DNA of 64,000 nt from Bryobacterales bacterium (GTDB taxonomy: Bacteria > Acidobacteriota > Terriglobia > Bryobacterales > Bryobacteraceae), in NCBI GenBank assembly GCA_003135055.1, contig PLDF01000083.1, forward strand, positions 1-64,000. The letters are read 5' to 3'. Positions within the stretch are counted from its first letter, which is position 1; every line of letters starts with the position of its first letter. The notes under the pieces are model-generated. The model worked only from the letters and a program-made list of their open reading frames with translations. It was not told where the DNA came from and did not search any database. Below, piece by piece: positions 3,378 through 49,930 of the stretch. The translations under genes were made by a program, and so were the position numbers.

Positions 3378-3433
3378 GTTCCGCTTCCCACGAACCGCTC
3401 CTTTGAGGTATGCTCGCTTTTAAGGAGGCAGGA

Positions 3434-4627
3434 GTGTCACGCGAGCGCCATCAGAACGGATGGGTTGTAGAGTCCGGCAAGCGGATTAGGAAGTGGATCG
3501 GCCACTGGTGCCCGTACCGTCCGGACGGAACTCGTACCCACTCGACGGTGGTCCTAGGCCTTAAATCGAAGATGCGCAAGTGGGAGGCAGAAGATGCGCT
3601 CCGCAAGCACATCGAAAGCGAGACCGGACAGCGGCCGAAATGCGACGCCGATCCAACATTGCAGTGGTTCTGGGAGAACGCCTACCTACCATCTCGGACT
3701 TGGGGGCCGGCCATGGTCTCCACGGTTACATCAATTGTCAACCGACACATACTTCCGAAGTTCGGTCAGACGCCATTGGCCGACTTAGATAAACTCGAAC
3801 TCCAAAAGCATCTGAATGCACTTGCGGAGTCCTTCAGCCGATCAATGGTAAAAAAGATTCTGGTGCAGTACCGCGCGATCCTGGAGGAGGCGGTCGAACG
3901 GGATCTGGTCGTCAAGAACCAGGCGCGCAATCTGGCGATGCCGCCCACGAGGAAGCCATGCGGCCGGTTCCTGGCATTGGAAGAGTTCGATGCGCTCATG
4001 GCTCAACTGGAATTCCGGGATCGTCTCATCGTGCGGATGTTTTGTACGATGGGTTTCCGACCGGGCGAGATGTTCGCGCTCCGCTGGGACGACATCGAAG
4101 CGGGGCGAGTGAGGGTAGACGAGTCCGTTTCCCCGTGGGGAGTGAAGGAACCCAAAACCGAGGGGTCGGACGCCTACCTCCCCATGCCGGCGAGCGTCCA
4201 GTCGGAGATGGATTTATGGCGTGGCATGCGCTGCACCACGTCTCCGGCGTCCCTCGTCTTTCCAACGGCCAACGGCACTGCGCTCTCGGCCCACAACTAC
4301 GAACGCGACGTGATCGTGCCGGCCGCCATCCGCGCCGGTATCATGACCGCGCCTCCAAAGGAACGCCAGACAGGCGACGCGAAGCGCGACAAGGCGACCG
4401 CGGTGAACTTCCAAGCTTTCCGCCGAACCTTCGCCACCTGGATGCAACGCACGGGCGCTACCGTTAAGGACGTCCAGGGCGCCATGCGGCACAGCAGTCC
4501 CGACCAGACGCTGAAAGCTTACATGCGCGAGATTCCGGCTGGTGTGCGCACCGCGGTAGACGCGCTTGATCGGATGTTTACGGAGCGGCGTAACGCGGAT
4601 ACCAAGACGCAGGGGCCTCTCCAATGA
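3434..4627 (+). CDS. Tyrosine recombinase / integrase
   Basis: A phage-type tyrosine integrase that would insert and excise the element. I prefer GTG 3434 to ATG 3410 because AAGGAGG lies at 3422-3428, at good spacing. The N-terminal SAM-like core-binding domain includes 'TLQWFWENAYLPSRTWGP' and 'VNRHILPKFGQTPLADLDK'. The catalytic domain has Arg I in GFRPGEMFALRW, the beta-hairpin Lys in EPKTEGS, box II FQAFRRTFATWM, the second His in GAMRHSSPDQT, and the nucleophile Tyr in LKAYMREI. The usual first His of box II (HxxR) is Gln here. A degenerate tRNA 3' end follows 65 bases later, as expected for an element integrated at a tRNA. A copy of its C-terminal coding region recurs at 11456. Confidence 0.9.
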   Translation: MSRERHQNGWVVESGKRIRKWIGHWCPYRPDGTRTHSTVVLGLKSKMRKWEAEDALRKHIESETGQRPKCDADPTLQWFWENAYLPSRTWGPAMVSTVTSIVNRHILPKFGQTPLADLDKLELQKHLNALAESFSRSMVKKILVQYRAILEEAVERDLVVKNQARNLAMPPTRKPCGRFLALEEFDALMAQLEFRDRLIVRMFCTMGFRPGEMFALRWDDIEAGRVRVDESVSPWGVKEPKTEGSDAYLPMPASVQSEMDLWRGMRCTTSPASLVFPTANGTALSAHNYERDVIVPAAIRAGIMTAPPKERQTGDAKRDKATAVNFQAFRRTFATWMQRTGATVKDVQGAMRHSSPDQTLKAYMREIPAGVRTAVDALDRMFTERRNADTKTQGPLQ

Positions 4628-7700: not shown

Positions 7701-8768
7701 ATGACACTCGAAGAGGCATCCCAACTCCTTTCCAACTGGCTCACGCAGAAGCCGGTGGAGGTCGCCGCACAGAAGGCCGCTCTTGAACATTACGGCAAGT
7801 TCTTCCGTCCCGACAACCTTGGGAAGATAACGCAGGACGACTTTAGAGCCTTCCTCACCTTCAAGAACAACAAGCATTGGGCAAACATCCAGCGACAGCC
7901 GAACATTTACGCCGACATGGAGCGACTTCGTAAGGCGCTTGCCGTGCTGCTGGATGAGACGAAGGCGATTCAAGATCGTTTAGACAAGATCATGGACAAG
8001 AACGGACCACTTTACATCAAAGGTCTCGGCAGAGCGGTTCTGACCCCGATCCTCATGTGCGTGTACTCCGACAAGTACGCCGTCTACAACAGGATCAGCG
8101 AAGAGGGCTTGACCCGGCTGGGTCGGAATATGGCAAAATCCAACGACAGCTTCGGAAAACGCTACGTGGCGATTAACGAAGCGTGCCGCCAAATTGCTGA
8201 TGACATCAAACAACCTCTTTCGCTTGTCGATTCGATGTTCTCGCTCATGGTCCACGGTGCGGACTCCCCGCTCATATCTCCGTCCACGTCCGATGGCGGC
8301 GGTGAAGGCGGCGGGGATACGGAAATGGAGGCGGCGCCGATCACCACACTTGTTGGTAATTCCTTCGTGTTTCCCTTGGAGAAATACCTTGAAGACTTCC
8401 TCGTTTCAAATTGGGAGAAAACAGTTCTTGGAAAAACGCTGGCGCTCCATGTGGAAGACGACGAGATCGCAACGCAGTACTCCACCGATCTCGGCCCGAT
8501 TGACATTTTGGCTCGGGATAAGAGCAACCACGATTGGGTCGTCATCGAATTGAAAAAGGGTAAAAGCTCTGATGCCGTCGTGGGGCAACTGCTCCGGTAC
8601 ATGGGTTGGGTTAAGAAGCACCGGGCGACGGGCTGCGAAAGTGTCCGGGGCATCATCATCACCAGCGCCCCTGACGACCGGATCAAGTACGCCATGCTGG
8701 TTAGCCACGGCGTCTCGTTCTACACATATCGGGTGAGTTTCGATCTGGTGGAAGAGCAACCAGCTTGA
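7701..8768 (+). CDS. EndoNucS/DUF91-like nuclease-domain protein
   Basis: A 355-residue protein. Residues ~1-180 form an alpha-helical region (ASQLLSNWLTQKPVEVAAQK, GLGRAVLTPILMCVYSDKY), followed by a Gly/Ser linker (SDGGGEGGGD). The C-terminal ~120 residues resemble the NucS/DUF91 PD-(D/E)XK nuclease: LEKYLEDFLVSNWEK, the active-site Asp in TDLGPIDILARD, the Glu and Lys in WVVIELKKGKSSD, and the conserved QLLRYMGWV helix. Related proteins cleave branched or mismatched DNA or act in defence. Here the fused N-terminus probably sets the target. Expression would be from the intergenic region shared with the divergent gene at 6561-7565. Confidence 0.7.
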   Translation: MTLEEASQLLSNWLTQKPVEVAAQKAALEHYGKFFRPDNLGKITQDDFRAFLTFKNNKHWANIQRQPNIYADMERLRKALAVLLDETKAIQDRLDKIMDKNGPLYIKGLGRAVLTPILMCVYSDKYAVYNRISEEGLTRLGRNMAKSNDSFGKRYVAINEACRQIADDIKQPLSLVDSMFSLMVHGADSPLISPSTSDGGGEGGGDTEMEAAPITTLVGNSFVFPLEKYLEDFLVSNWEKTVLGKTLALHVEDDEIATQYSTDLGPIDILARDKSNHDWVVIELKKGKSSDAVVGQLLRYMGWVKKHRATGCESVRGIIITSAPDDRIKYAMLVSHGVSFYTYRVSFDLVEEQPA

Positions 8769-12313: not shown

Positions 12314-13237
12314 CTATGCTCCGCTTACCGGGACGATAACCTTGTTCGGTTTCAGATACGCAACCAGGGTCAAAAGTTCATGGCCGTTATGAAACGGCTC
12401 GAACGAGAAGAGGTGCTCCTCGCCGCGATCATCCGTAAGGACAATCTCCCGCTTCCCCAGCGGGCCACGCTTCCCCCAGGAACAATAGCTTGAGAGAATA
12501 TCGAACCCGTCCTGCTCCGAGAAGGAGGCAAACATCTCCTCGAACTTCCGCGACCGAATGAAGTAACGGCAGGGGGCCGTCCGATCGAACTCCTCGTCAG
12601 TGTAGTGCGGATGTTGGCTGACGATCCCGAGCGCCGGAACCTCCAGCGTCTCAATCACCCGCCAAAGGCACGAGGTGATAGTGTTCTTAAATTGTTTCTG
12701 TGCATCCTGCACGAGTTTGAAGGAAACGGCTGAGCTTCTTGCGAATTCGTCAAAGACGCCCTGCAAAAAGAGAAGCCGTCCGGCGCCGTAGTTGGCCTCT
12801 CCCTCAAGTTCCGCGTGGCAGGTGGGATTCAGCGTGTGCGTTGTATCCCCGTGCATCAGCGTCTGGTGCCACGGCACGACGCTATGAATCACCTCGTGCG
12901 CCTCGCTCCACCGCCACTTCAGGCGATGCTGAGACTCATCAATCAGAATCCTCTTTCGATCCGGCAGATAGAGCGCCTTCAGGTCCCACTTCCGAATGGC
13001 GTCAATGACGAGCATCGGCCGAAGGGCGACCTGCTTCCCAGCAATGACCGCCCTGCTCACGAACTCCCGGATCGCGCTGTCATCGGTAGATGAGTAGTAT
13101 TGCCGGTCCAGGCGCAGAAGTTCCCTGACGGCGTCCAGGTCCAACGGCGGCTCGGGATTTCCAAGCCCCCGCAGAATTTTTGCGACCTGAGCGTCGATGT
13201 CGCGCGCGCTACGTCCGTCAAGGAATTTGTTTCTCAA
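12314..13237 (-). CDS. ImmA/IrrE-family zinc metallopeptidase
   Basis: A 307-residue protein with the gluzincin signature HEVIHS (HExxH) in RWSEAHEVIHSVVPWHQTLM and a downstream Glu-rich helix CHAELEGEANYGAGRLLFL that supplies the third ligand. ImmA/IrrE peptidases cut a partner HTH repressor and so switch on phage or element genes. Here the partner XRE gene lies directly upstream on the same strand, with a 4-base overlap (13234-13237), fitting this. The last ~100 residues (FEEMFASFSEQDGFDILSSY, HNGHELLTLVAYL) form an extra domain. Confidence 0.8.
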   Translation of the reverse strand: MRNKFLDGRSARDIDAQVAKILRGLGNPEPPLDLDAVRELLRLDRQYYSSTDDSAIREFVSRAVIAGKQVALRPMLVIDAIRKWDLKALYLPDRKRILIDESQHRLKWRWSEAHEVIHSVVPWHQTLMHGDTTHTLNPTCHAELEGEANYGAGRLLFLQGVFDEFARSSAVSFKLVQDAQKQFKNTITSCLWRVIETLEVPALGIVSQHPHYTDEEFDRTAPCRYFIRSRKFEEMFASFSEQDGFDILSSYCSWGKRGPLGKREIVLTDDRGEEHLFSFEPFHNGHELLTLVAYLKPNKVIVPVSGA

Positions 13238-13698
13238 GCTTTAGATAGGAAATTTACCCAGGCTTCAAAAGCAGCATGCTCTTCCGGAGTCGGCGCTTCG
13301 AGCGTCTCTGCACGAGCCGCAAAGCGAACAGACTCCTCTTGGAACTGAACGTCTTTCAGGTCAAGCAACCCCGCAAGAGCCATCAACCGCTGTTCCGATA
13401 TACCCAGGAAATCCGCTATCTGATAAACTGTCCGCGCCTTCGGCCTTGCCTTCTCAGTCTCGATATTGACGAGTTCGAAGAGATCGACGTCGGCTCGCTC
13501 GGCAAACTGCTCAAGCGTGAGCCTCTTTTCCTTGCGCGCAAGATGGACGAAACGGCTGAAGGAGACGCGAGTAGCATCGCCTACCTTGCGCTTCTCCTCA
13601 TCAGCCTTGTACAAAGATCCGGCCACAGAAACGAAGGACCCATCCTCCGCTTCGGCTTTCCGGCGCATCCATTCCGGGTCATTATTAAAATCCCTCAT
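13234..13698 (-). CDS. XRE-family HTH regulator
   Basis: A 154-residue protein with a central Cro/C1-type helix-turn-helix (FSRFVHLARKEKRLTLEQFA, ERADVDLFELVNIETEKARP, KARTVYQIADFLGISEQRLM). The N-terminal ~50 residues and an acidic C-terminal helix flank it. It overlaps the ImmA-like peptidase gene by 4 bases, so the two are translated together and probably form a repressor-protease switch. It follows the GNAT toxin-like gene with an 11-base gap, so all four minus-strand genes from 14517 to 12314 may share one promoter. Confidence 0.8.
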   Translation of the reverse strand: MRDFNNDPEWMRRKAEAEDGSFVSVAGSLYKADEEKRKVGDATRVSFSRFVHLARKEKRLTLEQFAERADVDLFELVNIETEKARPKARTVYQIADFLGISEQRLMALAGLLDLKDVQFQEESVRFAARAETLEAPTPEEHAAFEAWVNFLSKA

Positions 13699-13708
13699 TC
13701 CACTCTCC

Positions 13709-14308
13709 TCACAGTTTCGCAGCCTGTTCCGGCGTGAACTCGCACCAGAGCAGGTTCTCCTTGTTGGGATCGGGCGCCACCGGCGTCATGCCACAGACTT
13801 TGATGTAAAAGTCGTGGGATGTGGGCACCGCGTGAAGCCCAACCCGCCCCTTGAACCCCTCCTCGAAACTCTGACGCACCGCGGCTTCAATCAACCGCGT
13901 GCCAACCAGAGCATACTTCGGCTGCTCCCCCAGGGCGTTCATCAGCACCTTGATATTCCAGGGAGCAGTCTCCACGTAATCGATGTATACCAACTCTTTA
14001 CGGCTTTGCTCCGGGAGCCTGCAAACGTGCCCGACGGTCTCGACCTTCATCAGACCTTCGATTTTGTCTGCAAGTTGTATCGCGTAAAAGGTGTTTGCAA
14101 GGAGTGCGAGTTCGCGGTCTTTTGAGGTCCAGTCCCAGTGGGCATTACGCGGTCGAAGTTCGGGAGGAAGTTTTCGCCTGGCCTCCCGAATCATCGGCCG
14201 CCATTGCTCCTCGGCGAGAAGCAGGTGCTCTTCGGTCACCTCGTCAGACAACTCTGCGTCGACGAACTCCCCACTCGCCTTTTCGACGAGTTTGACCGGG
14301 ACTCTCAC
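13709..14308 (-). CDS. GNAT-family acetyltransferase, probable TA-type toxin
   Basis: A 199-residue protein with a GNAT fold in its second half: the beta4 strand LVYIDYVETAPWNI, the acetyl-CoA-binding region YALVGTRLIEAAVRQSFEEG, and the late strand GRVGLHAVPTSHDFYIKVCG. The pyrophosphate-binding loop is atypical, VGTRL, where QxxGxG/A is usual. Its start overlaps the upstream RHH gene by 4 bases (ATGA). An RHH antitoxin followed by an overlapping GNAT gene is the arrangement of TacAT-type toxin-antitoxin modules, whose toxins acetylate aminoacyl-tRNA. That function here is inferred from layout. The chain is somewhat longer than the ~160-175 residues of typical TacT proteins. Confidence 0.65.
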   Translation of the reverse strand: MRVPVKLVEKASGEFVDAELSDEVTEEHLLLAEEQWRPMIREARRKLPPELRPRNAHWDWTSKDRELALLANTFYAIQLADKIEGLMKVETVGHVCRLPEQSRKELVYIDYVETAPWNIKVLMNALGEQPKYALVGTRLIEAAVRQSFEEGFKGRVGLHAVPTSHDFYIKVCGMTPVAPDPNKENLLWCEFTPEQAAKL

Positions 14309-14517
14309 AGAACCATCAACTCCGCCTTTGCCTTTTGGTCATCCTCAAAGAACAGTTTCTCCCCACGCGCGAGACGGGCATCAACCATTTGATAGAGCCT
14401 GAGGGCTTGACGCAGAAGAGCCGTCTTGCTGAGATCCTTCTGTTCCGACAACTCGTCCAGAACCCGCATCTCCTGGTCAGTGAGATTCAATGTCATGGTC
14501 TTCTTCTGAGGTGTCAT
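14305..14517 (-). CDS. Ribbon-helix-helix antitoxin-like protein
   Basis: A 70-residue protein. The N-terminal strand KTMTLNLTDQEMRVLDELSE and helix-turn-helix KDLSKTALLRQALRLYQMVD match RHH/CopG-type DNA-binding antitoxins, and the charged C-terminal tail (EKLFFEDDQKAKAELMVL) would clamp the toxin. The ATG has a GGAG 7 bases upstream. A strong sigma-70-type promoter lies just upstream on the minus strand. As in other TA modules, the product is expected to repress its own operon. ATATACAT occurs twice (14540 and 14582) in the intergenic region as possible operator half-sites. Confidence 0.7.
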   Translation of the reverse strand: MTPQKKTMTLNLTDQEMRVLDELSEQKDLSKTALLRQALRLYQMVDARLARGEKLFFEDDQKAKAELMVL

Positions 14518-14538: not shown

Positions 14539-14566
14539 AATATACATCAGATGGCCAACATGTCAA
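14539..14566 (-). promoter_or_regulatory. Sigma-70-type promoter for the RHH/GNAT operon
   Basis: On the minus strand TTGACA (14566-14561) is followed after 16 bases by TATATT (14544-14539), 22 bases before the RHH start codon. The TTGACA is a perfect -35, and the -10 differs at one base. The repeated ATATACAT elements at 14540 and 14582 overlap or flank it and may bind the antitoxin. Confidence 0.65.
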
Positions 14567-14616
14567 CATTAAATAGCTGTAATATACATAAAAACTAGCC
14601 AAATAGTGGCCAAGTA

Positions 14617-14625
14617 TGGTATAAT
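14617..14625 (+). promoter_or_regulatory. Extended -10 promoter for the ubiquitin-like operon
   Basis: TGGTATAAT is a consensus extended -10 (TGnTATAAT), 35 bases before the ATG at 14660. No -35 match is seen, which extended -10 promoters tolerate. It lies inside the longer open frame that starts at 14606, which argues that translation starts at 14660 rather than upstream. Confidence 0.5.
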
Positions 14626-14659
14626 GGTTTTGGGCCCAGAAAAAGGAGGGGCCGCACAA

Positions 14660-15400
14660 ATGGAACCTGAACAAAAACCAGAGATCGTAGAAGTTGTTGA
14701 AATTATTGAGATTGTGGAGATCGAAGAGTTCGCAAAACGTGGGGAGCACGTACCTCATGCGAAGCACTACGCGTTTCGCGTCGACAAAGAGCGCGTCGTC
14801 GTGACCAGCCCGACCATAACCGGCACAGAAATCCTCGCCAAGGTCGGAAAGACCCCAGAGGCATTCAAACTCTACCAGCACAAGCGACACCACCAGCCGG
14901 TCTTGATCGGACCCCACGAAGTGGTCGATCTTCGCGCTCATGGCGTGGAGCGCTTTACGACCATGCCCAAAGACACCACCGAAGGACTGGTCACCTGCTC
15001 AGTCCACGAGGACTTTCGCCTCCCTGCGGCAGACGAGGAATACCTCGAAGGCTTGGGGCTTCCCTGGGAAGCGCGAAAGCATAACGAGAGCCAATGGCTC
15101 GTCATCCACACCTGGAGACTGCCCCCCGGCTATAACCACGAGACTGCAAAGCTAGCGCTTCTCATCCCGCCCGGGTACTCAGACAGCCAGATCGATATGG
15201 TCCATTTCTCGCCGGCACTCGCTCGTAACGACGGGAAACCAATCGGCGGCCTAAGCGCGAGCCGAGTCGGAAACGAAGGTTTTCAACAGTGGTCCAGACA
15301 CCGCACACAGAAAAACCCATGGCGCATCGGCATCGACGATGTTGCAAGCCACCTCGCCCTGGTCGATGACTGGCTCCGGCGCGAGTTCGAGAAGGCATAA
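14660..15400 (+). CDS. Multiubiquitin-domain / prokaryotic E2-like fusion protein
   Basis: The start is set by AGGAGG at 14644-14649 before ATG 14660 (a GTG at 14606 would add 18 residues). After an acidic Glu/Val/Ile tract, residues ~30-110 form one multiubiquitin (beta-grasp) domain: KHYAFRVDKERVVVTSPTIT, GTEILAKVGKTPEAFKLYQ, VVDLRAHGVERFTTMPKDTT. The rest matches the prokaryotic E2-like family found with it: FRLPAADEEYLEGLGLPWEA, SQWLVIHTWRLPPGYNHETA, LALLIPPGYSDSQIDMVHFS, WRIGIDDVASHL. The only Cys (residue 113 from this start) is at the junction of the two domains, so a normal E2 active-site Cys is not evident. It is the first gene of a three-gene operon with JAB-E1 and DUF6527. Confidence 0.85.
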   Translation: MEPEQKPEIVEVVEIIEIVEIEEFAKRGEHVPHAKHYAFRVDKERVVVTSPTITGTEILAKVGKTPEAFKLYQHKRHHQPVLIGPHEVVDLRAHGVERFTTMPKDTTEGLVTCSVHEDFRLPAADEEYLEGLGLPWEARKHNESQWLVIHTWRLPPGYNHETAKLALLIPPGYSDSQIDMVHFSPALARNDGKPIGGLSASRVGNEGFQQWSRHRTQKNPWRIGIDDVASHLALVDDWLRREFEKA

Positions 15401-15404
15401 CCCG

Positions 15405-16790
15405 GTGAGGTACGCGCTCCGATTAACCGAGGCGCAGCACGACCTGCTGCGCACTCATCTCTTCCCAGGTGATGGGAACGAAGCCGTCGCGCTTTTGCTC
15501 TGCGGACGAAGGAATGGTTCAGGTAGGCATGCCTTCTGCGTTCAGAAGATCTTGCCAGTGCCCCACAGTGCCTGCTCCGTACGCACGCCGGACCGAATCA
15601 CGTGGCCGACAACGTTCGTTGATGACCTCCTGAGCGAAGCCTTCGCAAGTGCGCAGGCGATCGTGAAGATTCATAGCCACCCCGGCTACTACCGAAAATT
15701 CTCCTCGGCCGATGACCAGTCTGATCGCGCGCTCTACGACTCCGTTTCAAGCCTTCTCGGAGACGCTCTTCCGCACGCGAGCGTCGTCATGTTGCCAGAC
15801 GGCCAGATGTTCGGGCGGGTCGTCGCCGCTGGCGAGATCGTGCAGCCACTCTCCTCAATTACCGTGACCGGATCTGACTTGAAGCTGTACGGTGCAGGTG
15901 CAGATGCATCCACCTCGACTGATGCCTTCGCCCTCCGCCATGCCCAAGCCTTTGGAAAGGGAACAACTGCGCTACTGCGCTCACTTTCGATCGCCGTGGT
16001 CGGATGTTCTGGAACGGGCAGCATTGTGATCGAGCAACTCGCCAGGCTCGGCGTGGGACGCCTCGTGCTTATCGATCCAGACTGCGTCGAAGAGAAAAAC
16101 CTGAACCGCATTTTGAACTCGGGAAAGGAAGATGCGTATCTGAAGCGCTACAAAGTCCACGTCCTTGCCTCCGCGATCGCCCGTATGGGGCTCGGTCAGG
16201 AAGTCCTCCCGTTACCTCTCAATCTGGCGACAAGGGAGGCGGTACTCGCCGTTGCAGAGTGCGATGTAGTATTTGGCTGCATGGACGGCGTCGAAGGCAG
16301 GCACCTGCTGAACCGGATCGCCACCTTCTATTCGATCCCCTATTTCGACGCTGGAGTCAGGCTTGACGCTGACGGAAAAGGAGGAATATCGAGCATTGCC
16401 GGAGCCGTGCATTATCTTCAGCCCGGCCGCTCCAGCCTCCTCAGTCGCGAGGTCTACACAATGAAGCAGGTCGAGGCTGAGGAATTGAAACGAACAAACC
16501 CGGACCTGTACGCCGAGCTGCGCCGGGCGGGATACCTTCGAGGCGTCGACGAGGACCGGCCGGCAGTCATCAGCGTCAACATGCTGTACGCCTCCCTCGC
16601 TGTAAACGAGTTCCTCGCGCGCGTGCACCCATACCGAAACCAGCCAAACAGCGACTACGCCTACCTGGGTGCAAGCCTCTCCGAAGTCGGTTTCTACCCG
16701 GAATCGGAAGCCGCCGATTGCCTCGCCCTCAAACGTCACCTGGGTCGCGGTGACGTAGAACCTCTCCTGGAAAGGCCGTCGCTCTCATGA
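15405..16790 (+). CDS. JAB deubiquitinase-like / ThiF-E1 fusion protein
   Basis: Two enzyme halves lie in one chain. Residues ~1-150 are a JAB/MPN metalloprotease domain with the metal-binding HSHPG and downstream S-x(n)-D (KIHSHPGYYRKFSSADDQSD, about residue 87), expected to trim or remove the ubiquitin-like tag. Residues ~190-460 are an E1/ThiF adenylation domain: IAVVGCSGTGSIVIEQLARL, VLIDPDCVEEKNLNRILN, and FGCMDGVEGRHLLNRIA. The position where many E1s carry a catalytic Cys reads QPGRSSLLSRE. I start at GTG 15405, because the frame before it overlaps the E2 gene. The product should activate the beta-grasp protein encoded upstream. The gap to that gene is 4 bases, and the next gene overlaps by 4. 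Confidence 0.85.
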   Translation: MRYALRLTEAQHDLLRTHLFPGDGNEAVALLLCGRRNGSGRHAFCVQKILPVPHSACSVRTPDRITWPTTFVDDLLSEAFASAQAIVKIHSHPGYYRKFSSADDQSDRALYDSVSSLLGDALPHASVVMLPDGQMFGRVVAAGEIVQPLSSITVTGSDLKLYGAGADASTSTDAFALRHAQAFGKGTTALLRSLSIAVVGCSGTGSIVIEQLARLGVGRLVLIDPDCVEEKNLNRILNSGKEDAYLKRYKVHVLASAIARMGLGQEVLPLPLNLATREAVLAVAECDVVFGCMDGVEGRHLLNRIATFYSIPYFDAGVRLDADGKGGISSIAGAVHYLQPGRSSLLSREVYTMKQVEAEELKRTNPDLYAELRRAGYLRGVDEDRPAVISVNMLYASLAVNEFLARVHPYRNQPNSDYAYLGASLSEVGFYPESEAADCLALKRHLGRGDVEPLLERPSLS

Positions 16791-17128
16791 TAAAGTGGCT
16801 TTCAACCGTGTGGCGAAATCTCTCGCATCTCTTTCGGCGCAGGGACAAACCATTCAACGTTTTTCATCTTGAAGAACTCCCCGAGAATCCTAAGCAGGGG
16901 ACCATTTATGCAATAGGGGAGGGGACCCCGTGGGCATTAGCGCTCCTTTGCCCTTGTGGCTGCAGAGCGCTGATTCAACTCAGCCTTCTGAAAGATGAAC
17001 GGCCGAGTTGGAAGATGCGCCTCGACCGCAAAGGTCGTCCCACGCTGACGCCCTCGGTCTGGCGAACCGCCGGTTGTCGTTCTCACTTTCTTGTCCGCGA
17101 GGGGCGCATTATCTGGTGCGGCAGATGA
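16787..17128 (+). CDS. DUF6527-type Cys-rich protein of the ubiquitin-like operon
   Basis: A 113-residue protein with a Cys/His set that suggests a small zinc-binding domain: LLCPCGCRALIQLSL, then AGCRSHFLVREGRIIWC. The body (FHLEELPENPKQGTIYAIGE) fits the family I know as DUF6527, repeatedly found downstream of JAB-E1 genes. Its ATG overlaps the JAB-E1 stop codon (ATGA). Whether it acts as an E3-like adaptor, a target or a regulator is unknown. From 17129 to 17369 I see no gene. Confidence 0.7.
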   Translation: MIKWLSTVWRNLSHLFRRRDKPFNVFHLEELPENPKQGTIYAIGEGTPWALALLCPCGCRALIQLSLLKDERPSWKMRLDRKGRPTLTPSVWRTAGCRSHFLVREGRIIWCGR

Positions 17129-33054: not shown

Positions 33055-35322
33055 TCAGTCATCGATGTCGTCGAAGATGCTGCGGGTGCCGGGCGAAGGC
33101 GGCTCGGATGCATCCATTTCTCCAAATACGCGCGGCGCGCGTTCTCGCGGTGAGTCGCGTTCAGCCATTTTCTCGGCAATCCACTCGTTGACTGAATCGA
33201 TCTCCTGCTGGATCATCCGCGCAAGTGCGGGCTCGGAAGAGAATTGCTGCTTGAGGGATTTGTACGACTCCAGCAGGGGCTGCATCATGTCTTCGGGACT
33301 TGCGGAGGGGAAGAAGTCGTGCATCCAATGCGATGAGACATCGGAGAGTTTCGGGATCAGGTCGTCATGCACGCGCTTGCGGAACTGCGCCATTTCTTCA
33401 GATGTAAATACACTCTGAATGCCTTTGTTTTCGAGACCATAAAAATCGTCGCCGTCGAATGTGTAGGCCATCACCTTCTCGACAAAGGCTTTGCGATATT
33501 GCTCCGGCAGAACGCCACACTGGTGGAGCCGCACGGCGAGACGGACCTCGGAACAAGCATCAAGGGCGAGGCCGGGATCGGCGACCCTTTTGAGGACCTT
33601 CTCGTCCTCGATGTAGAGCGCAAGGAAGTCCTTCGAACATCGGTAGCTTAGAAAGTCGTCTACGCGGCTTCGGCGGTCGCTCATCGACACATGCGATGCC
33701 GCTTCGTCGGTGCAGTACGTCATGAGGCGCTTGCGGACCAGCGGGAAGAGGCTTTTCGGGATCATGACAGCGCGTTCCAGGCTTACGTCGCCGCAGGTGA
33801 TCTGCGACATGAGCTTGTCGGCGGGGCTGCCTTGTACATAGATGCCGAGCCACTCGGGGTTCTTGAGCAGCAACGAAGCGAAGGCTTCGCCCACGGTCGG
33901 ATGTTTAAAGCGCCAGATAGCGCCGTCGTCGCTTTGGACATACTGAACGAGGCTGCCTTGAAGGCAATCGAGAGCGACGGTACAACCTCCCAGATTGCTT
34001 CCCAGCTTTTCGATCGCTTCGCGCTCCGAAGGCTCCAGCGAAATTGGGCTGTCGAGCGTGCCGCTGCGCATGTAAATGAGCGCCAGCGCCGCTTTGCTGT
34101 CTTCGTCGAGGCCGGTGATGACTTCGTGCAACAGCCGCTCTTGCTTCTCCACAAACTGGTCGATCTCGTCCCGGTCCAGTTCAAGCTCCTGGGTGAACAG
34201 GGGATCGCCCAGGCGCCGCGCGGTTTCGGGGATAAAGCGCTTATGTTCCGCGACGAAGGCCAGATGCGGCTTGACCGCCTTACGAAACTTCTTCGTCTGC
34301 TTTCCAAGCCGAATATGGTTATACAAGATCTGCTGGCGTTCGTCCAAGGTGAGATCGTGTACGTCGATGACAACCTGGCTCTCGCGCAGCAGCGGGAACG
34401 CGCCCTCCTTGAGCTCGTTGCGGGCATGCCGGTAAATGTAATCGCGCGAGGTCATGACGATTTTGCCGCCTTGCCGCAGAATCGCCTTGACCTCTCCGAG
34501 AACGTGATTCCAACGGTGGACAAGGTGCGATTCGAATTGCGTGTCGCCGAAGGCATCGTCAACCCAGAAGAATTGCGCTGGCTCGTCCGTGTTCCAGTGC
34601 TTGATAACCTGGCCTGCATCATTGAGCTTCAGCGTCGAGCAGCCCCACTGGTCAAGCGCCGCGACGGCGAGTATAGAGGCGATTGTCGTTTTCCCCGCCG
34701 CCGGCTCGCCGATCAGCAGCACAAACCCGTGCCGGTCGAGCGCCTCGACAGCACGCCGATAGGCGGAGGTGATCACGACTTTTGAGAGATCCTCGCGCAG
34801 AGATGCCAGCAACGCCTTGGCCTGCCGGTAAGCCCTATCATCGAGAATCTGGCTTAGATCGCCCAGCCCGTAAATGCGCGGCACCATCATGCGCAGGCGC
34901 CTGCGCTCCCGGATTTGGTCGCAGATCCAGGTGCCGCCGAAGATCGCGACAGACTTGACGCCAACGGCTTTGAGTGAGGCCTTGATCTCAGCGGCTGCAG
35001 CGCCCGAGACGCCCGCGTTCGTCATCAGCACATAGCTGTCGCAGAGGTCCCGTTTGACCAGCTTCCCAGCCTTTTTCATTTCGTCGGCGAGATCGGCGGC
35101 GCGAAGGTTGCGCTCGCGCTTGCTCGTAAACTTGCACTGAATGACGAAGTGCCCGGAGAGTCTTTCCTTTGCCTGGCGTTTCCAGGCGCCGACAAAGGCG
35201 CCGTCCTGGCCTGCGTCGGCGCTGGGCAGGAAAGATTCCACAGTCTGGCCTAAGACTTCCCGGCAGACCGTAAGGCACAACTGCTGGAAGCTGTGCCAGC
35301 CCAGATTGTGAAGATCGTACAT
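33055..35322 (-). CDS. Mrr-like nuclease / nSTAND-type NTPase protein
   Basis: A ~755-residue protein. The N-terminal ~130 residues are a restriction-endonuclease-like domain: YDLHNLGWHSFQQLCLTVCR, with the catalytic Asp in SADAGQDGAFVG and the QxK of HFVIQCKFTSK. A P-loop NTPase of the nSTAND3 kind follows: Walker A FVLLIGEPAAGKTTIASIL, Walker B QFFWVDDAFGD and sensor IVMTSRDYIY. The remaining ~350 residues are helical and may sense a phage component. Nuclease-STAND proteins act in antiviral defence as oligomerising sensors (Avs-like). I start at the ATG 35322 with GGAG upstream; ATG 35361 would add 13 residues. The gene stands alone and is divergent from the DISARM region. Confidence 0.75.
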   Translation of the reverse strand: MYDLHNLGWHSFQQLCLTVCREVLGQTVESFLPSADAGQDGAFVGAWKRQAKERLSGHFVIQCKFTSKRERNLRAADLADEMKKAGKLVKRDLCDSYVLMTNAGVSGAAAAEIKASLKAVGVKSVAIFGGTWICDQIRERRRLRMMVPRIYGLGDLSQILDDRAYRQAKALLASLREDLSKVVITSAYRRAVEALDRHGFVLLIGEPAAGKTTIASILAVAALDQWGCSTLKLNDAGQVIKHWNTDEPAQFFWVDDAFGDTQFESHLVHRWNHVLGEVKAILRQGGKIVMTSRDYIYRHARNELKEGAFPLLRESQVVIDVHDLTLDERQQILYNHIRLGKQTKKFRKAVKPHLAFVAEHKRFIPETARRLGDPLFTQELELDRDEIDQFVEKQERLLHEVITGLDEDSKAALALIYMRSGTLDSPISLEPSEREAIEKLGSNLGGCTVALDCLQGSLVQYVQSDDGAIWRFKHPTVGEAFASLLLKNPEWLGIYVQGSPADKLMSQITCGDVSLERAVMIPKSLFPLVRKRLMTYCTDEAASHVSMSDRRSRVDDFLSYRCSKDFLALYIEDEKVLKRVADPGLALDACSEVRLAVRLHQCGVLPEQYRKAFVEKVMAYTFDGDDFYGLENKGIQSVFTSEEMAQFRKRVHDDLIPKLSDVSSHWMHDFFPSASPEDMMQPLLESYKSLKQQFSSEPALARMIQQEIDSVNEWIAEKMAERDSPRERAPRVFGEMDASEPPSPGTRSIFDDIDD

Positions 35323-35506
35323 CAGCCAAGGCGCTCCAATTGTGCAACTGCCTGAAAACATTTTCGCGCAGGTTTGTGTGTTTGGCCGAGCTTAGACTGT
35401 GGGGCGCAGGAGTTCAATGAAGGATGGGGGGCAGGTTATGGCCATTGCCGGAATCGCCGGACTCCTCGTTCTTTGTACAATGTTGCGCGTTCAAGAGGGA
35501 TCAATC

Positions 35507-36653: not shown

Positions 36654-39600
36654 ATGAGCGTAGCTGCCGCTATCCCAGAAGTCGGCCAGATTGTCCGCGT
36701 GCGCCAACGACTGTACTTGGTGGAGGGCCTGGTTGCGCGCCCCCGGCCGCAAGATTCCACGCTCGTCGAACTCTCCTGCATCGAGGACGACGCTCAAGGG
36801 CAGGAGCTCAAGGTGCTCTGGGAGCGAGAGTTGGACGCGGCGATCCTGACGGGTGAGGAGTGGGCGCGGCTCGCCCAGCGCGGATTCGACCCGCCTGAGT
36901 ACTTCTCCGCCTATCTCAATACCCTCCGGTGGAATTGTGTCACTTCCACCGACGCCACCCTCCTGCAATCCCCTTTCCGTGCGGGTATCCGGCTGGACGC
37001 CTATCAGCTCGAACCACTGAGAAAGGCGTTGCGACTACCACGCGTGAATCTGTTCATTGCCGATGACGTCGGCCTTGGCAAGACCATCGAGGCCGGCTTG
37101 ATCGCGCGCGAATTGCTGATGCGCAAGAAAGTCCGCGAAATCGTGGTAGCGTGTCCGCCGTCGATGCTACTTCAGTGGCAGGAGGAACTTGAACAGCGAT
37201 TTGGCCTTCTCTTCGAGATCTTCGACAAAGACTTCATTGCCCAGATTCGCCGCGAACGAGGCTTCGGGGTCAACCCCTGGACGGCCCATTCCCGCTTTCT
37301 GATTTCCCACCGTCTGTTGATCGACGAGACCTACGCCGGGCCTCTCCGCAACTGGCTCGGGACGTTCCGCCCCGGCACCCTGCTTATCCTCGACGAAGCG
37401 CACCACGCCGCACCATCGAGCGGTCAGCGCTACGCCATCGACTCGCAGATTACGCGAGCGATCCAGGGGCTCTCTCCCAGGTTCGAACACCGATTGTTTC
37501 TATCCGCCACACCGCACAACGGCCATTCGAACAGTTTCACCGCCCTGCTGGAGTTGTTGGATCCGCAGCGCTTCTGCCGCGGCGTCAAAGTGGTCAAGCG
37601 CAACCTGGATGACGTGATGGTGCGCCGCCTCAAGGACGACCTGCGCGAGATCGTTGGCGGATTTCCGAAGCGCCATGTCGTGCAGGTTGATATTTCGGGT
37701 CTGCCCGCCGACTCTCCCGAGCTCCGTATCGCCGCCCTACTGGACCAGTACCGCGCCCTCCGCGAGGAGCGGCTGGCCGGAGAAAGCCGGCGCACGCAGA
37801 GTGCCTCCGGCCTCCTGATCACCGGTCTTCAGCAGAGGCTGTTCTCTTCCATCGAAGCGTTCGCTAAAACGCTGGCGGTCCATCGCAAGACCGTCAAGAA
37901 GCAATGGGAACAGGCGCCGACGGCGCCAGCCGCCACAACATCGCTCGACTTGCTCTCAGAATCGGTAGGAGCGGACGACGAACGAGCCATCCTCTCCGAG
38001 GAGGCGCTCGCCGCAGAGGCCGACGCCCAGATGGAGGCCGCCACCACGGCGACCATCGGACCGACCCAGGATCAATCCTCGAGGTCCCTCTTCGACCGCG
38101 AGCAACAGCTCCTTGACGAAATGACGGAACTTGCAGACAAGGCCCGCTTCCAGCCCGATGGACGGGTAAAGAAGCTGGTGGAGTGGATTCGCGCCGAACA
38201 GCTCAAAGACGGTAAGCACTGGACCGATATTCGCGTCATCATCTTCACGGAGTACGACGACACCAAGCGCTATCTCCTCAATCAGCTGAACGCAATCATC
38301 GATCAATCCGACCGCGCTGAGGAGCGCATCGCCGTGTACCATGGCCCGACCCCGGCTGCTGAGCGCGAGACCATCAAGAGAGCCTTCAACGCAGATCCGA
38401 AGCAGCATCCACTGCGGATTTTGATCGCCACTGACGCGGCGCGCGAGGGTCTCAACTTGCAAGCCCATTGCTGGAATCTTTTCCATTTCGACGTTCCCTG
38501 GAACCCCGGGCGCATGGAGCAGCGCAACGGTCGTATCGACCGCAAGCTGCAGCCCAGCCCCGATGTCTACTGCCATTACTTTTTCTACACGCAGCGGCCT
38601 GAGGATCGAATCCTGAAGGTGCTAGTCGAAAAGACCAAGCGCATCCAGGAGGAACTTGGATCGCTCTCACAAGTCATCGAAAGTCGCCTGGAAACGCTGA
38701 TGAAGAACGGCATCCGCCGCCGCGATCTCTCGACTCTCGAACAGCAAATCCGCGATGCTGACATCGAGAAGGAACGCCGTGAGACCATGGCGGACGAACT
38801 GGAAGCCGCCCGCGAGCGGCAGGACGCCCTCCGCGAACAGATTGACCGCCTCCGCGGCATGCTCAATCGCTCGCGCCAGGCCGTCGCCTTCCAGGAAGAC
38901 CACTTCCGTGCCGCCATCTCCTGTGGACTTCGCATCGCAGGTTCCGAGCCACTCGGCGCCCAAGCCGCCAGCGGAACTCCGACGGCCATTCATGGCCCAA
39001 CGCAGTACACCTTCCCCGCGATCGACCAGCGCGATGGAGCCGATCCCACCTGGGCCGCCACGCTGGACGCCCTGCGAAAGCCGCGCGATCGAGGCGAGCG
39101 TCTATGGGAGTGGCGCCGCAACGCACCCATCCGGCCGGTAGTCTTTGAGGACCCGGGAATCGTTACGGATGAGGTGGTGCATCTTCACCTGGAGCACCCG
39201 GTCGTCCGCCGTCTGTTGTCCCGGTTTGTCTCCCAGGGCTTCGTACATCACGATCTGTCTCGCGCCTGCTTGAGCCAGACCAACGACGCCATTCCGCGCG
39301 TGATCCTGCTGGGGCGATTGGCACTCTATGGCCCCGGGGCAGCCCGCCTTCACGAAGAGATCATTCCCGTGACGGCCCGCTGGCGCGAGTCCACCCGAAC
39401 GGAGCCGCTCACTCCTTACGCGCGCACTGCCGAAACCGAAACGTTGCGGCTGCTCGATGATGCCCTGATGGCTCCGCGCGATCACCGTCTCAATGAAACC
39501 ATACGCCGTCAACTGTTGGAATCGGTAACCCGCGACATCCAGGACCTTTTGCCTCACCTCGAAACTCGGGCTCGGGAATACGAACAGGATGCTCGCACCG

Positions 39601-39896
39601 CTCTCGGTAAACGCGCGGACGCCGAGGCCAAAGCCATGCGAGAGATCCTCGATCTGCAACAGACCCACCTGCTCTCCACCATCAGCGCTCACGACAAGAG
39701 CCTTCAGTTGTTGCTCGATTTCAACGATGACGAACGCCGTCAGAAGGAGCATGACCGGCGCTACTGGGAGACACGCCTCGGCGAATTGCATCGCGAACGT
39801 GAGACAGAGCCCGAGCGTATTCGTGCCCTTTATGAAGTGAAGGCCCGCCGCGTCGAACCCATCGGCCTTGTCTATCTGTGGCCGGTGACCAACTAA
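36654..39896 (+). CDS. drmD: DISARM SNF2-type helicase DrmD
   Basis: A 1080-residue SWI2/SNF2-family helicase. N-terminal lobe: Walker A FIADDVGLGKTIEAGLIARE (~residue 136), VACPPSMLLQWQEELEQRFG, DEAH-box LLILDEAHHAAPSSG and motif III FLSATPHNGHSNSFTALLEL. C-terminal lobe: IRVIIFTEYDDTKRYLLNQL, IATDAAREGLNLQAHCWN and the arginine-finger motif DVPWNPGRMEQRNGRIDR. The long C-terminal part is helical and charged. It is the signature gene of class 1 DISARM and heads the operon drmD-drmMI-drmA-drmB-drmC. In DISARM the helicases probably act on incoming phage DNA. The next gene starts 6 bases after its stop. Confidence 0.9.
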   Translation: MSVAAAIPEVGQIVRVRQRLYLVEGLVARPRPQDSTLVELSCIEDDAQGQELKVLWERELDAAILTGEEWARLAQRGFDPPEYFSAYLNTLRWNCVTSTDATLLQSPFRAGIRLDAYQLEPLRKALRLPRVNLFIADDVGLGKTIEAGLIARELLMRKKVREIVVACPPSMLLQWQEELEQRFGLLFEIFDKDFIAQIRRERGFGVNPWTAHSRFLISHRLLIDETYAGPLRNWLGTFRPGTLLILDEAHHAAPSSGQRYAIDSQITRAIQGLSPRFEHRLFLSATPHNGHSNSFTALLELLDPQRFCRGVKVVKRNLDDVMVRRLKDDLREIVGGFPKRHVVQVDISGLPADSPELRIAALLDQYRALREERLAGESRRTQSASGLLITGLQQRLFSSIEAFAKTLAVHRKTVKKQWEQAPTAPAATTSLDLLSESVGADDERAILSEEALAAEADAQMEAATTATIGPTQDQSSRSLFDREQQLLDEMTELADKARFQPDGRVKKLVEWIRAEQLKDGKHWTDIRVIIFTEYDDTKRYLLNQLNAIIDQSDRAEERIAVYHGPTPAAERETIKRAFNADPKQHPLRILIATDAAREGLNLQAHCWNLFHFDVPWNPGRMEQRNGRIDRKLQPSPDVYCHYFFYTQRPEDRILKVLVEKTKRIQEELGSLSQVIESRLETLMKNGIRRRDLSTLEQQIRDADIEKERRETMADELEAARERQDALREQIDRLRGMLNRSRQAVAFQEDHFRAAISCGLRIAGSEPLGAQAASGTPTAIHGPTQYTFPAIDQRDGADPTWAATLDALRKPRDRGERLWEWRRNAPIRPVVFEDPGIVTDEVVHLHLEHPVVRRLLSRFVSQGFVHHDLSRACLSQTNDAIPRVILLGRLALYGPGAARLHEEIIPVTARWRESTRTEPLTPYARTAETETLRLLDDALMAPRDHRLNETIRRQLLESVTRDIQDLLPHLETRAREYEQDARTALGKRADAEAKAMREILDLQQTHLLSTISAHDKSLQLLLDFNDDERRQKEHDRRYWETRLGELHRERETEPERIRALYEVKARRVEPIGLVYLWPVTN

Positions 39897-39901
39897 CCAC
39901 C

Positions 39902-42900
39902 ATGGCGAAGTCCCCGGAACAGCTCGCGCATGAGCAGTGGCTCGGCTACATCCAGCCTGAAGGGTTGGTAGTCTCTATTCCGGCCCTGCTGGAAGCCCGT
40001 GCGCACATCAACCAGAACTTCCTACCCCGCCACCGCGCGCTGCTCGAATTCCTGCCCAAGGACCGCACCGGCCAGCCCATCGGTGAACTGCCGGGCTTTC
40101 TCCCGTTCGCTGAATCCATTCTCGGTTGGTCGCAAGCCGACATCGCTGGAGCACCGCAAGGGCCGGCTCTGCCCGACACGCTTCAGTTTTACCTGCGGGA
40201 TTATGGCGAGACCCTGCAGCCGACCTATGCCGTGCGCGACTCGGCCCGCGACGACTCGGACTGGCTGCTACTGATTGAGGAACTGCCCGGTGTTCAGGAT
40301 TTCGATACCGCCATCCCCACCGGCATCCGGCAATGGCAGGCCAGCCCGCAAGCTCGCTTTGAGCGCCTGCTGCGAGAGACGAAAGTGCCAGCCGGACTGC
40401 TGGTCAACCAACAAGCCATCCGCCTGGTCTACGCTCCACGGGGCGAATCGAGCGGTTTTCTCACCTTCCGCATTCCTGAAATGATCCAAGTCGCGGGACG
40501 GCCGCTCTTCGCCGCCCTCGACATGCTGCTGTCCGCCGACCGCCTCTTCGTTGTCGAGAGGAAGGAGCAACTCCCGGCGATTCTTGCCGCCAGCCGTAAA
40601 TACCAGAACGTCGTCTCGACACGCCTGGCTGGGCAGGTGTTGGCCGCGCTGTACGAATTGCTGCGAGGCTTCCAGGCGGGCCATGACCAGTCGTCGGGCC
40701 AGTTACTGAAAGACGTGCTGGCGAACGATCCCCATCAGGTCTACCAGGGCCTGCTCACGGTGCTGCTGCGGCTGGTCTTCATCCTCTTTGCCGAGGATCG
40801 CGGCCTGCTCTCGACCGATCCCATCTACACCAACCACTACGGCATCGGCGGTCTCTTCGAGCGGCTCCGCGCCGACGCTGCCCGCTACCCCGACACCATG
40901 GATCAGCGCTTCGGAGCCTGGGCGCAACTCCTCACGCTGTTCCGCCTCATCTATGATGGCGGCAGTCACGGGCCCAAGTTCGATCTGCCCGCGCGCCGCG
41001 GCTACCTCTTCGATCCCAGCCGCTACGCCTTCCTCGAAGGCCGCCAAGCTGCAGAAGACTCTATCGCCATTCCCCGCATCTCGGACGGCGTACTCCATCG
41101 CGTACTCGAGAACCTGCTCATCCTCGACGGCGAACGGCTCAGCTACCGCAATCTCGATGTTGAACAGATCGGCAGCGTCTACGAGGCTGTCATGGGCTTC
41201 ACTCTTGAGGTAGCTGCGGGACCTGCCATCGCGATCACCTCGCCGAAGAAGGCGAAAGGCGGGGCACCCGTCACCATTAACCTGGACGAACTGCTTCGAG
41301 CCGCGCCCGCCAAACGCGGCGAGTGGTTGCAGAAAGCCACCGGCCAGAAACTCGCCCCAAAGGCGGCGGCTGCACTGAAATCCGCTGCTTCGCTCGCCGA
41401 TCTGTTGGCCGCGCTCGACCGCAAGATCGAGAAAGACCTGACGCCCGCCGTGGTCCCTGCCGGCTCCATGATCTTCCAGCCGTCACCCGAACGCCGCCGC
41501 AGCGGATCCCACTATACGCCCCGGTCGCTCACCAGCCCCATTGTCGAAGCCGCCTTGGCTCCCGTACTTCAGCAACTCGGCCCCGAGCCGACATCGGAAC
41601 AGATTCTCGATCTCAAGGTCTGTGACCCAGCCATGGGCTCAGGCGCATTCCTTGTGGAAGCCTGCCGGCAGTTGGGCGAGCACTTGCTCGAAGCCTGGCG
41701 CCGCGAAGATTCCCTTCCGCCGATTCCTCCGGACGAGGAAGAACTGCTCCATGCCCGCCGTGTGATCGCCCAGCGCTGTCTGTACGGTGTGGACAGGAAC
41801 AAAATGGCTGTTGATCTCGCCAAGCTTTCCCTTTGGCTGGCGACGCTTGCCAAGGAGCACCCCTTCACGTTCCTCGACCATGCGCTGCGCGATGGCGATT
41901 CGTTGGTCGGTTTCACCACTCGGCAGATCAGTTACTTCGACTGGTCTCAGAGCCCTCAACAGGACATCTTCGGCAAACGCTTCCAGGAAAGGTTAGAACG
42001 CGTTCTTCGCAATAGAGCCGTCATTATTAACTCCCCGGACACCATTCCGTACGAGACTCAGCAGCAGCGTTTGCGGAAGGCGGACGAGTACTTGATGGAT
42101 GCCCGCCTCACCGGTGACCTGCTAGTGGCAGGGTTCTTTTCGGCATCGAAGCCAAAGGCGAGGGAAAAGGAGCGGCTCGCTAAAGGCGCGCTTCTCAAGC
42201 GAGCGCTTGAGAAGATTACAGATCTCGATGCCGACGATGAGATCCAGGGCATCGCGCGAGCGCTCCGTGCTCAGGGCGTCACGCCCTTCCATTGGGAAAT
42301 CGAGTTTCCAGAAGTCTTTCGTTTGGGCGGTTTCGACGTGATCGTCGGCAACCCTCCCTTTGCCGGCAAGAATACGATCATAGAAGGCAATGCCACCTAT
42401 TATATGGACTGGCTGAAGTTGATTCATGCCGAGTCCCACGGCAACTCGGACCTGGCTGCGCACTTCTTCCGGCGAGCATTCACTTTGCTCAAGCCGGGAG
42501 GCTGCTTTGGCCTGATCGCTACGAACACTATCGGACAGGGCGATACGCGATCCACTGGGCTGCGCTGGATCTGCGGGAATGGCGGTGTCATCTATCACGC
42601 GCGCAAGCGCTACAAGTGGCCGGGACAGGCGGCGGTGGTGGTCAGCGTCGTGCATGTGCACAAAGGCCCGCTTGAGCGCCCGTACTATCTCGACGGCCGC
42701 GCGGTGGAGCGCATAACAGCCTATCTGTTCCATGCTGGTGGTAGCGAAGATCCCGAGACACTGGTGGCCAATGAGGATAAGAGTTTTCAAGGGAGTATCG
42801 TTCTCGGTATGGGCTTTACCTTTGACGATAGCGATAGCAAAGGCGTCGCTTCGTCGTTGGCCGAGATGCACCGCTTGATCGCGAAAGACTCGCGCAATGC

Positions 42901-49142: not shown

Positions 49143-49930
49143 TGAACGGACTGCTTACGCTCTCGGCGTCGGACCTCACCGCCTTGAAGGAGGCTCTCCG
49201 AACTGGGCGCCTGCCTGCGCCGTTTCTGCCCACCCTGATCGAACGGATCGTCCCACGTGCCGTGGCGGGCGACGTTTCAGCGGCGCTTCAGGGGATGGCC
49301 GCCGCCGGCGCCAACCGGGAGGGTCTCGTCGCTGCGCTCGAATTGCTGGCGGCCGCGCGTGCCCAGCAACCCTCCATCGACGAAGTGATAGAACTCGTCA
49401 CAACGGGTCCAGACACCGGCACGGTGACAAACCGTGACACCCAGGTGGTGGTTCAAGAGCTATTCCGAAATGCCGAACGCAGCGTTCTCGTCGTCGGTTA
49501 TGAGCTGTATCAGGCAGCGGCGGTGTTTCGGATTTTGGCTGACCGGATGGCGGAGGAACCCCGCCCGAGCGTACGCATGTTCTTGAACGTTAAGCGGCCA
49601 CTCGGAGACACCAGCACCGACAGCGAGCTCATCGCCGCCTTCGCGTTTCGTTTTCGGACCCAGCACTGGCCGAGCGAGCGAGATTTGCCGGAAATCTACT
49701 TCGATCCTCGATCCCTCGCGGTCGACGCAAGACAGAGGGCCGTCCTCCATGCCAAATGCGTCGTTATCGACGGACGAATGGCTTTCGTATCGTCTGCCAA
49801 CTTCACAGAGGCGGCCCAGGAACGAAACATCGAAGTTGGGATGCTGGTGCGGTCACCGATTGTCGCTGAACGGCTCGTGACGTTCTTTTCGGCATTGGTT
49901 TCCACAGGTGCGGCAAAGCGGGCACTGTGA
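49136..49930 (+). CDS. drmC: DISARM phospholipase-D-like protein DrmC
   Basis: A 264-residue protein with one PLD/HKD motif near the C-terminus: LHAKCVVIDGRMAFVSSANF (H-x-K-x4-D with the following SSAN), about residues 204-223. An N-terminal helical part precedes it (LTALKEALRTGRLPAPFLP), then SVLVVGYELYQAAAVFRILA. PLD-fold nucleases of this kind dimerise to form an active site with two HKD motifs. In published DISARM work DrmC was not essential for protection. It closes the operon. An in-frame ATG 6 bases downstream is an alternative start. Confidence 0.88.
   Translation: MVMNGLLTLSASDLTALKEALRTGRLPAPFLPTLIERIVPRAVAGDVSAALQGMAAAGANREGLVAALELLAAARAQQPSIDEVIELVTTGPDTGTVTNRDTQVVVQELFRNAERSVLVVGYELYQAAAVFRILADRMAEEPRPSVRMFLNVKRPLGDTSTDSELIAAFAFRFRTQHWPSERDLPEIYFDPRSLAVDARQRAVLHAKCVVIDGRMAFVSSANFTEAAQERNIEVGMLVRSPIVAERLVTFFSALVSTGAAKRAL

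Follow-up and report, generated by a model that had tools for sequence, protein, structure and literature searches.

A bacterial operon that joins a ubiquitin-like (Ubl) domain to an E2 in one chain, and a JAB protease to an E1 in the next, raises the questions of which kind of conjugation system it represents, how a Ubl made as part of its own E2 could be used as a tag, and what ties the operon to phage defense. We examined these questions in a 64-kb window from a soil bacterium, meaning the whole stretch of 64,000 nucleotides analyzed, against a comparison set of about 40 Bub operons and loci from genomes, plasmids, and viral contigs. The operon lies at 14660-17128 on the forward strand and consists of three genes encoding Ubl+E2, JAB+E1, and DUF6527 proteins (Table 1). 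This is the layout that an earlier note had read from the letters of the DNA, and open reading frames and Pfam matches, every one above the curated cut-offs, bear it out to the base. The first chain matches Multi_ubiq (PF14452, residues 37-103, E = 4e-12) and Prok-E2_E (PF14462, residues 121-241, E = 1.4e-29) and contains, as claimed, one β-grasp multiubiquitin domain fused to an E2. The claimed joining of JAB protease and E1 is seen in the second chain, with matches to Prok-JAB (PF14464, residues 11-124, E = 6e-6) and ThiF/E1 (residues 180-407, E = 1.8e-28), and the third protein is indeed a Cys-rich DUF6527 protein, its cysteines clustering at C55, C57, C59, and C97. The spacing was also read correctly: genes 1 and 2 are separated by 4 bases, and genes 2 and 3 share 4 (ATGA). 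The start of gene 1 is backed by an AAGGAGG sequence at 14643-14649 and by a co-linear start in a relative, L007.

The neighborhood search that the note had suggested for the trio recovered the gene order and both fusions in homologous loci from other phyla, and the arrangement is thus not a product of chance. The assembly comprises 10.7 Mb in 515 contigs with an estimated contamination of 9%, and the nearest relatives are MAGs labelled Bryobacterales and Chloracidobacterium, which makes an acidobacterium the probable host.

Table 1. Features of the Bub operon, its control module, and the region between them.
Feature	Position	Strand	Description
Gene 1, bubA-bubB fusion	14660..15400	+	246 aa; single multiubiquitin-type Ubl aa 37-109, Prok-E2_E domain aa 119-245
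Gly109 codon	14984..14986	+	predicted mature Ubl C-terminus and cleavage point (TTEG|LVTCSVHED)
E2 Ser212 codon (WSRH motif)	15293..15295	+	predicted acceptor of Ubl oxyester
Gene 2, bubCD	15405..16790	+	GTG start, 461 aa; N-terminal JAB metalloprotease fused to ThiF-type E1
E1 Ser344 codon	16434-16436	+	catalytic-Cys position of BubCD E1
Gene 3, DUF6527 protein	16787..17128	+	113 aa; Pfam PF20137 (8e-24)
Predicted operator	14574..14612	.	four degenerate TAGCTA half-sites, 11-bp spacing
Predicted Bub promoter	14596..14625	+	TAGCCA, 18 nt, TG + TATAAT; -35 inside operator array
Predicted divergent promoter of control module	14539..14566	-	TTGACA, 16 nt, TATATT
RHH (CopG-type) DNA-binding protein	14305..14517	-	first gene of the module; Pfam RHH_1; 63-75% identity to linked homologues
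GNAT-like acetyltransferase family protein	13709..14308	-	37-40% identity to linked homologues
Xre-type HTH protein, CapH-like by position and partner	13234..13698	-	HTH_19 4e-13; 30-42% identity to linked homologues
M78/ImmA-IrrE metalloprotease, CapP-like	12314..13237	-	HEVIH; PADLOC capP 1.6e-11; 46-50% identity to linked homologues

Homology identifies the operon as a ubiquitin-like conjugation operon, as had been claimed, and specifically as Bub (bacterial ubiquitination-like), a known kind of which this locus is a further member. The JAB-E1 chain aligns end to end with Citrobacter BubCD in the PDB (E = 2.2e-87), and the E2 half of gene 1 matches Citrobacter BubB (PDB 9eae_C, E = 7e-25). 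In the same database, the Ubl half finds its matches among multi-ubiquitin proteins of bacteria (6e-6 to 2e-4), with a weak one to BubA. A Foldseek search with the AF2 model of the fusion returned BubB as the top match (E = 8.5e-11, TM 0.92 on the target), followed by multi-ubiquitin proteins. Four features of Bub are found here: a multiubiquitin-type Ubl (BubA), a BubB-family E2 with a non-Cys acceptor, a JAB-E1 fusion with an intact JAMM motif, and a DUF6527 gene with a Ser-His pair. Citrobacter Bub shares with the window the whole length of the JAB-E1 protein, the E2 family, a Ubl ending in Gly before the E2, and a DUF6527 gene that comes next in its plasmid operons (L014, L042). However, related Citrobacter chains have three Ubls where the window has one, the E1 acceptor position is Thr in Citrobacter and Ser in the window, and the Citrobacter plasmids carry a CapK/CapS-like pair (annotated as an ATP-binding protein and a winged-HTH/DNA-binding protein) in place of the RHH-GNAT-HTH-M78 genes described below.

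The earlier note did not know this particular fused arrangement to have been tested. Novelty of the fusion was rejected: it is listed for some species in row 6e of Iyer, Burroughs and Aravind 2006 (PMC1779556), relatives of the fused protein occur on 97 plasmids, and solved structures exist for the E1, E2, and Ubl parts of Bub (PDB 9ea4, 9ea5, 9ea8, 9eae, 9eav). The fusion is ordinary within the Bub kind. All four components of class 6e (polyUbl, inactive E2-like protein, JAB-E1, and metal-binding protein Y) are common to the window operon. The window differs from the class in that its fusion has a single Ubl and its E2 is read here as active through Ser, and the accessible text on class 6e carries no mention of a control module (PMC1779556).

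Two other kinds were also considered. Bil (BilABCD) likewise holds Ubl, E2, JAB, and E1 in one operon, but the E1 and E2 of the window match Bub enzymes best, its JAB and E1 form one chain where Bil has separate genes, its E2 acceptor position lacks the catalytic Cys of BilB, and DUF6527 is present; membership in Bil was rejected. Type II CBASS Cap2/Cap3 shares an E1-like ThiF domain and a JAB domain with the window, whose E1, in contrast, is not fused to its E2 and is accompanied by a dedicated Ubl. PADLOC E1-E2 models cover only part of the E1 domain, the PADLOC scan of the seven proteins of the operon and module shows no CD-NTase cyclase, and membership in this type was rejected as well. 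The fused protein has no relative in phage records.

The main work on Bub reportedly describes oxyester chemistry in the pathway. Serine at both the E1 and the E2 positions where canonical enzymes have Cys agrees with what such chemistry would lead one to expect. The WSRH serine of the E2 is invariant in 39/39 aligned E2 domains, which contain no conserved Cys. Less favorably for this chemistry, the E1 acceptor position varies among the 39 loci, being Ser in 16, Thr in 7, Cys in 14, Gly in one (L018), and Asn in one. Ser or Thr occupies it in most of the window's clade and Cys in a second clade, and two changes on the tree suffice to account for the Cys and non-Cys types. The E1 position is Asn in L037/L061, where the E2 serine is kept; both carry the same control module as the window.

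The lack of a catalytic Cys also fits the proposal of Iyer et al. for the class, namely that the E2 lacks activity and is an RWD-like domain for binding Ubl, in which case the operon would not conjugate. While this is the annotation of 2006 (PMC1779556), the invariance of the WSRH serine and the solved BubB-BubCD structure (9eae) argue against it, and we consider it very improbable. We retain the reading in which the E2 would be active through its serine. The protease residues are equally well preserved: the JAMM residues of JAB (E26, H90, H92, S100, and D103) are kept as E/H/H/S/D in 39/39 loci, and Ser90 and His100 of DUF6527 are invariant (32/32). The DUF6527 protein is accordingly a predicted Ser-His hydrolase, which we take to be the published Bub serine (Ser-His) protease. 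A sequence search of the PDB for relatives of DUF6527 returned none, and its AF2 model is weak (mean pLDDT 63.7).

The junction between Ubl and E2 suggests how the fusion is used. In 20/20 tabulated fused chains the last Ubl is followed by a glycine at a constant position, as [E/N/D/A]G in nearly all. The linker from this glycine to the E2 is of variable sequence, ranges in length from 1 to 13 aa, and is predicted to be disordered. Residues 106-114, which surround G109, form the sole internal segment of the AF2 model with pLDDT<50. Inner Ubl-Ubl joints, in chains with two or three Ubls, have no glycine; the stand-alone tandem Ubl of L047 has one near, but off, the joint position. The stand-alone Ubls of six separate-gene operons (L009, L032, L039, L040, L041, L045) stop exactly at -TEG, and the BubA constructs in the PDB finish at the corresponding -NNG. 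In some of the other stand-alone Ubls the chain runs on briefly past the glycine, and a distant group is without it. Together, the joint glycine, the Ubls ending at -TEG, and the glycine-free Ubl-Ubl joints indicate that the fusion is most likely a precursor cut after G109, such that a single predicted cleavage would free both tag and E2 from one chain.

Phylogeny is consistent with this reading. In an E1 tree with 43 rows, switches between the fused and the separate state number at least 4 and most simply 7, and the window's nearest plasmid relative, L008, has separate Ubl and E2 genes; such interchange fits equivalent products of the fused and separate forms. If instead the fusion stayed uncut, the Ubl would serve the E2 in cis, for docking or regulation, and would not be conjugated. 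A single chain would secure equal amounts and proximity, and the Ubl folds independently in the model. Against this reading stand a glycine kept at every Ubl-E2 joint and at no internal one, stand-alone Ubls that end at precisely that residue, the variable and disordered linker that follows, and repeated fusion and fission, and we judge an uncut fusion to be quite unlikely. As for the protease that would cut the precursor, the fusion persists in two operons that lack an intact DUF6527, which was not detected in L053 and is truncated in L033. This points to JAB, and favors it over DUF6527, although the number is small and both operons may be decaying or may be complemented in trans.

Divergent from the Bub operon, at 12314-14517 on the reverse strand, lie four genes that form a conserved unit encoding RHH, GNAT, HTH, and M78 proteins. 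Partners of the RHH protein are 58-76% identical and occur on 19 plasmids. Pfam GNAT models match 4/8 relatives of the GNAT protein, and a profile search of the PDB with this protein found nothing. The same four genes face Bub in identical order in Thioclava, Shinella, Agrobacterium, and Roseibium (L037, L057, L058, L061). The module also faces a Bub-like operon in Novosphingobium (L060), and in Methylobacterium currus and Nitrobacter hamburgensis (L063, L064) it faces type III CBASS, for which PADLOC identifies the cyclase, HORMA, TRIP13, and SAVED endonuclease. Judged by coordinates, it faces CBASS in two Methylocystis bryophila records and Bub in Methylomagnum, Rhizobium CIAT894, and Nitratireductor. 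Fourteen of the 19 plasmid RHH records could be resolved, and 13 of these face Bub (7), a Bub-like operon (2 records, one plasmid), or CBASS (4); GNAT and M78 matches are close by in nearly all plasmid RHH matches. In Jiella (L059) the module stands beside the Bub operon, not opposite, and this locus was left out of the divergent set. In another acidobacterial family, L043 (G098:C7) combines a decayed Bub locus with what is left of the same module (M78-HTH-GNAT).

The last two genes of the module, an HTH gene followed by an M78 gene and divergent from an immune operon, have the layout of the CapH + CapP controller, and at least six homologous loci are alike. The window differs from that controller by the RHH and GNAT genes ahead and by an array of TAGCTA half-sites spaced 11 bp apart. 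CapW or CapH+CapP adjoins 219/544 Bub operons, and in related systems CapP cleaves CapH on binding ssDNA (PMC13373217). A literature search, which did not reach the main papers, found no description of the extended CapH/CapP-like module.

The intergenic regions of module loci, whether they face Bub or CBASS, have a TAGCTA-N5-TAGCTA motif in common. A relaxed TRGCYA form has a single occurrence in the window, at 14596-14612, with 0.01 expected; the window's own site was known when the motif was relaxed, and the count is to that extent circular. A non-circular test used the layout taken from Nitrobacter, four TAGCTA half-sites at 11-bp spacing. The best such array in the 64 kb is the predicted operator, which lies between two promoter-like sites and scores 18/24, a score reached by 0/100 shuffles of the whole window and 0/2000 of the intergenic region; among alternative half-site spacings from 7 to 16, none but 11 exceeds 14. 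The operator is degenerate when compared with Nitrobacter, where 24/24 positions agree. Among the loci examined, none that lacks the RHH gene contains the relaxed motif, and HTH+M78 pairs that lack RHH (e.g. L012, L017, L018) are without it. Its absence where RHH is absent suggests that the RHH protein is the likely reader of the TAGCTA motif.

We propose, at about an even chance of being right, that RHH-GNAT-HTH-M78 is an undescribed, exchangeable immune-operon controller with its own operator of tandem TAGCTA half-sites 11 bp apart, that it fronts unrelated cargo (Bub of two E1 clades and type III CBASS), and that its GNAT adds acetylation to an ssDNA-protease switch. RHH with GNAT is a known toxin-antitoxin layout, and tRNA acetylation occurs in such pairs. 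The substrate of the GNAT protein may be a module partner or, by analogy with those pairs, tRNA; both are candidates. The two genes could also be an ordinary toxin-antitoxin pair that only by chance separates a CapH/CapP pair from the operon and has no part in control, as the occurrence of GNAT relatives without Bub (e.g. Nostoc L062) would allow. Against such an accident, the four genes travel as a unit in the same order opposite both Bub and CBASS, GNAT and M78 accompany almost every plasmid RHH match, and the Bub promoter has its -35 inside the operator array. We regard such an accident as unlikely.

Taken as a whole, we think it probable that this is a Bub-type conjugation operon under an extended CapH/CapP-like controller, in which a precursor cut, an oxyester relay, and release of a repressor are combined. 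In the resting cell RHH, helped by the CapH-like HTH protein, would occupy the four half-sites between the divergent promoters. DNA damage or infection would, through ssDNA, activate the CapP-like M78 protease, by analogy with CapH/CapP (PMC13373217), and loss of the repressor would allow expression of the Bub operon. The Ubl would be made as the N-terminal part of a chain that continues into its E2, and the operon protease, most likely the JAB half of BubCD, would cut after Gly109 to leave a Ubl ending in -TTEG and a free E2. The E1 half would adenylate the C-terminal glycine of the Ubl, which would then be passed as oxyesters from E1 Ser344 to E2 Ser212 and on to a target. JAB and/or DUF6527 may remove the tag.

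Several other genes in the window are of kinds associated with defense or mobility. A complete class 1 DISARM operon (drmD, drmMI, drmA, drmB, drmC) lies at 36654-49930 on the forward strand, ~20 kb from the Bub operon. A possible further defense gene at 33055-35361 on the reverse strand encodes a protein with Mrr-type nuclease and nSTAND3 domains and matches the PADLOC candidate PDC-S73. At 56148-59158 lie genes for an AAA/ORC-CDC6-like protein and, next to it, a CARF6-type protein (PADLOC 2e-106), and this pair is adjoined by an IS transposase at 54181-55203. Upstream of Bub, a tyrosine integrase and a NucS_C/YhcG-like nuclease gene (3410-4627 and 7701-8768) may mark an island edge.

Phage protection has been demonstrated for no Bub operon (EMBO J 2026, PMC13373217), and an anti-phage role therefore cannot be transferred as fact from Bil or CBASS. 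The earlier note had drawn its link with defense from kinship to those systems; the operon is of the Bub kind and belongs to neither Bil nor CBASS Cap2/3, and the link itself stands through the controller common to type III CBASS and through DISARM in the window. A connection of the homologues with defense islands, whose absence the note had named as refuting its reading, is likewise present in the controller shared with CBASS and in the DISARM operon, integrase, and other defense-like genes of the window. The biochemistry of Bub pathways has been worked out, and what they lack is a proven biological role. Here, a four-gene module and operator common to Bub and type III CBASS are independent evidence placing Bub in phage immunity, and a controller that also fronts a proven anti-phage system ties the operon to immunity more firmly than do the tag genes alone. 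The shared module further suggests induction by DNA damage under a regulator exchangeable between systems, and it is this four-gene controller with its operator that should interest specialists.

A housekeeping or stress-related protein-modification system without a role in phage defense is another reading of these data. The authors of the 2026 study leave a general stress role open (PMC13373217), and no operon of the kind has been shown to protect; yet the operon is patchily present, in about 3% of sampled Acidobacteriota genomes, is frequently carried on plasmids, shares its controller with CBASS, and lies in the same window as DISARM. A housekeeping or stress function alone is somewhat unlikely, and we infer an anti-phage role for the operon.

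Two further observations concern Bub genes elsewhere. DUF6527 genes were seen in IMG/VR contigs at 5869-6288 of L071 and 4438-4719 of L073, in records that contain no E2 or E1; these are possibly virus-borne deconjugating proteins that could serve counter-defense, the neighbors in L071 being not clearly viral. In Enterobacter hormaechei pEho7-1 (L038), the Bub operon is spread over several frames as Ubl, E2, and E1 pieces and represents a decaying copy of the common IncHI2 version.
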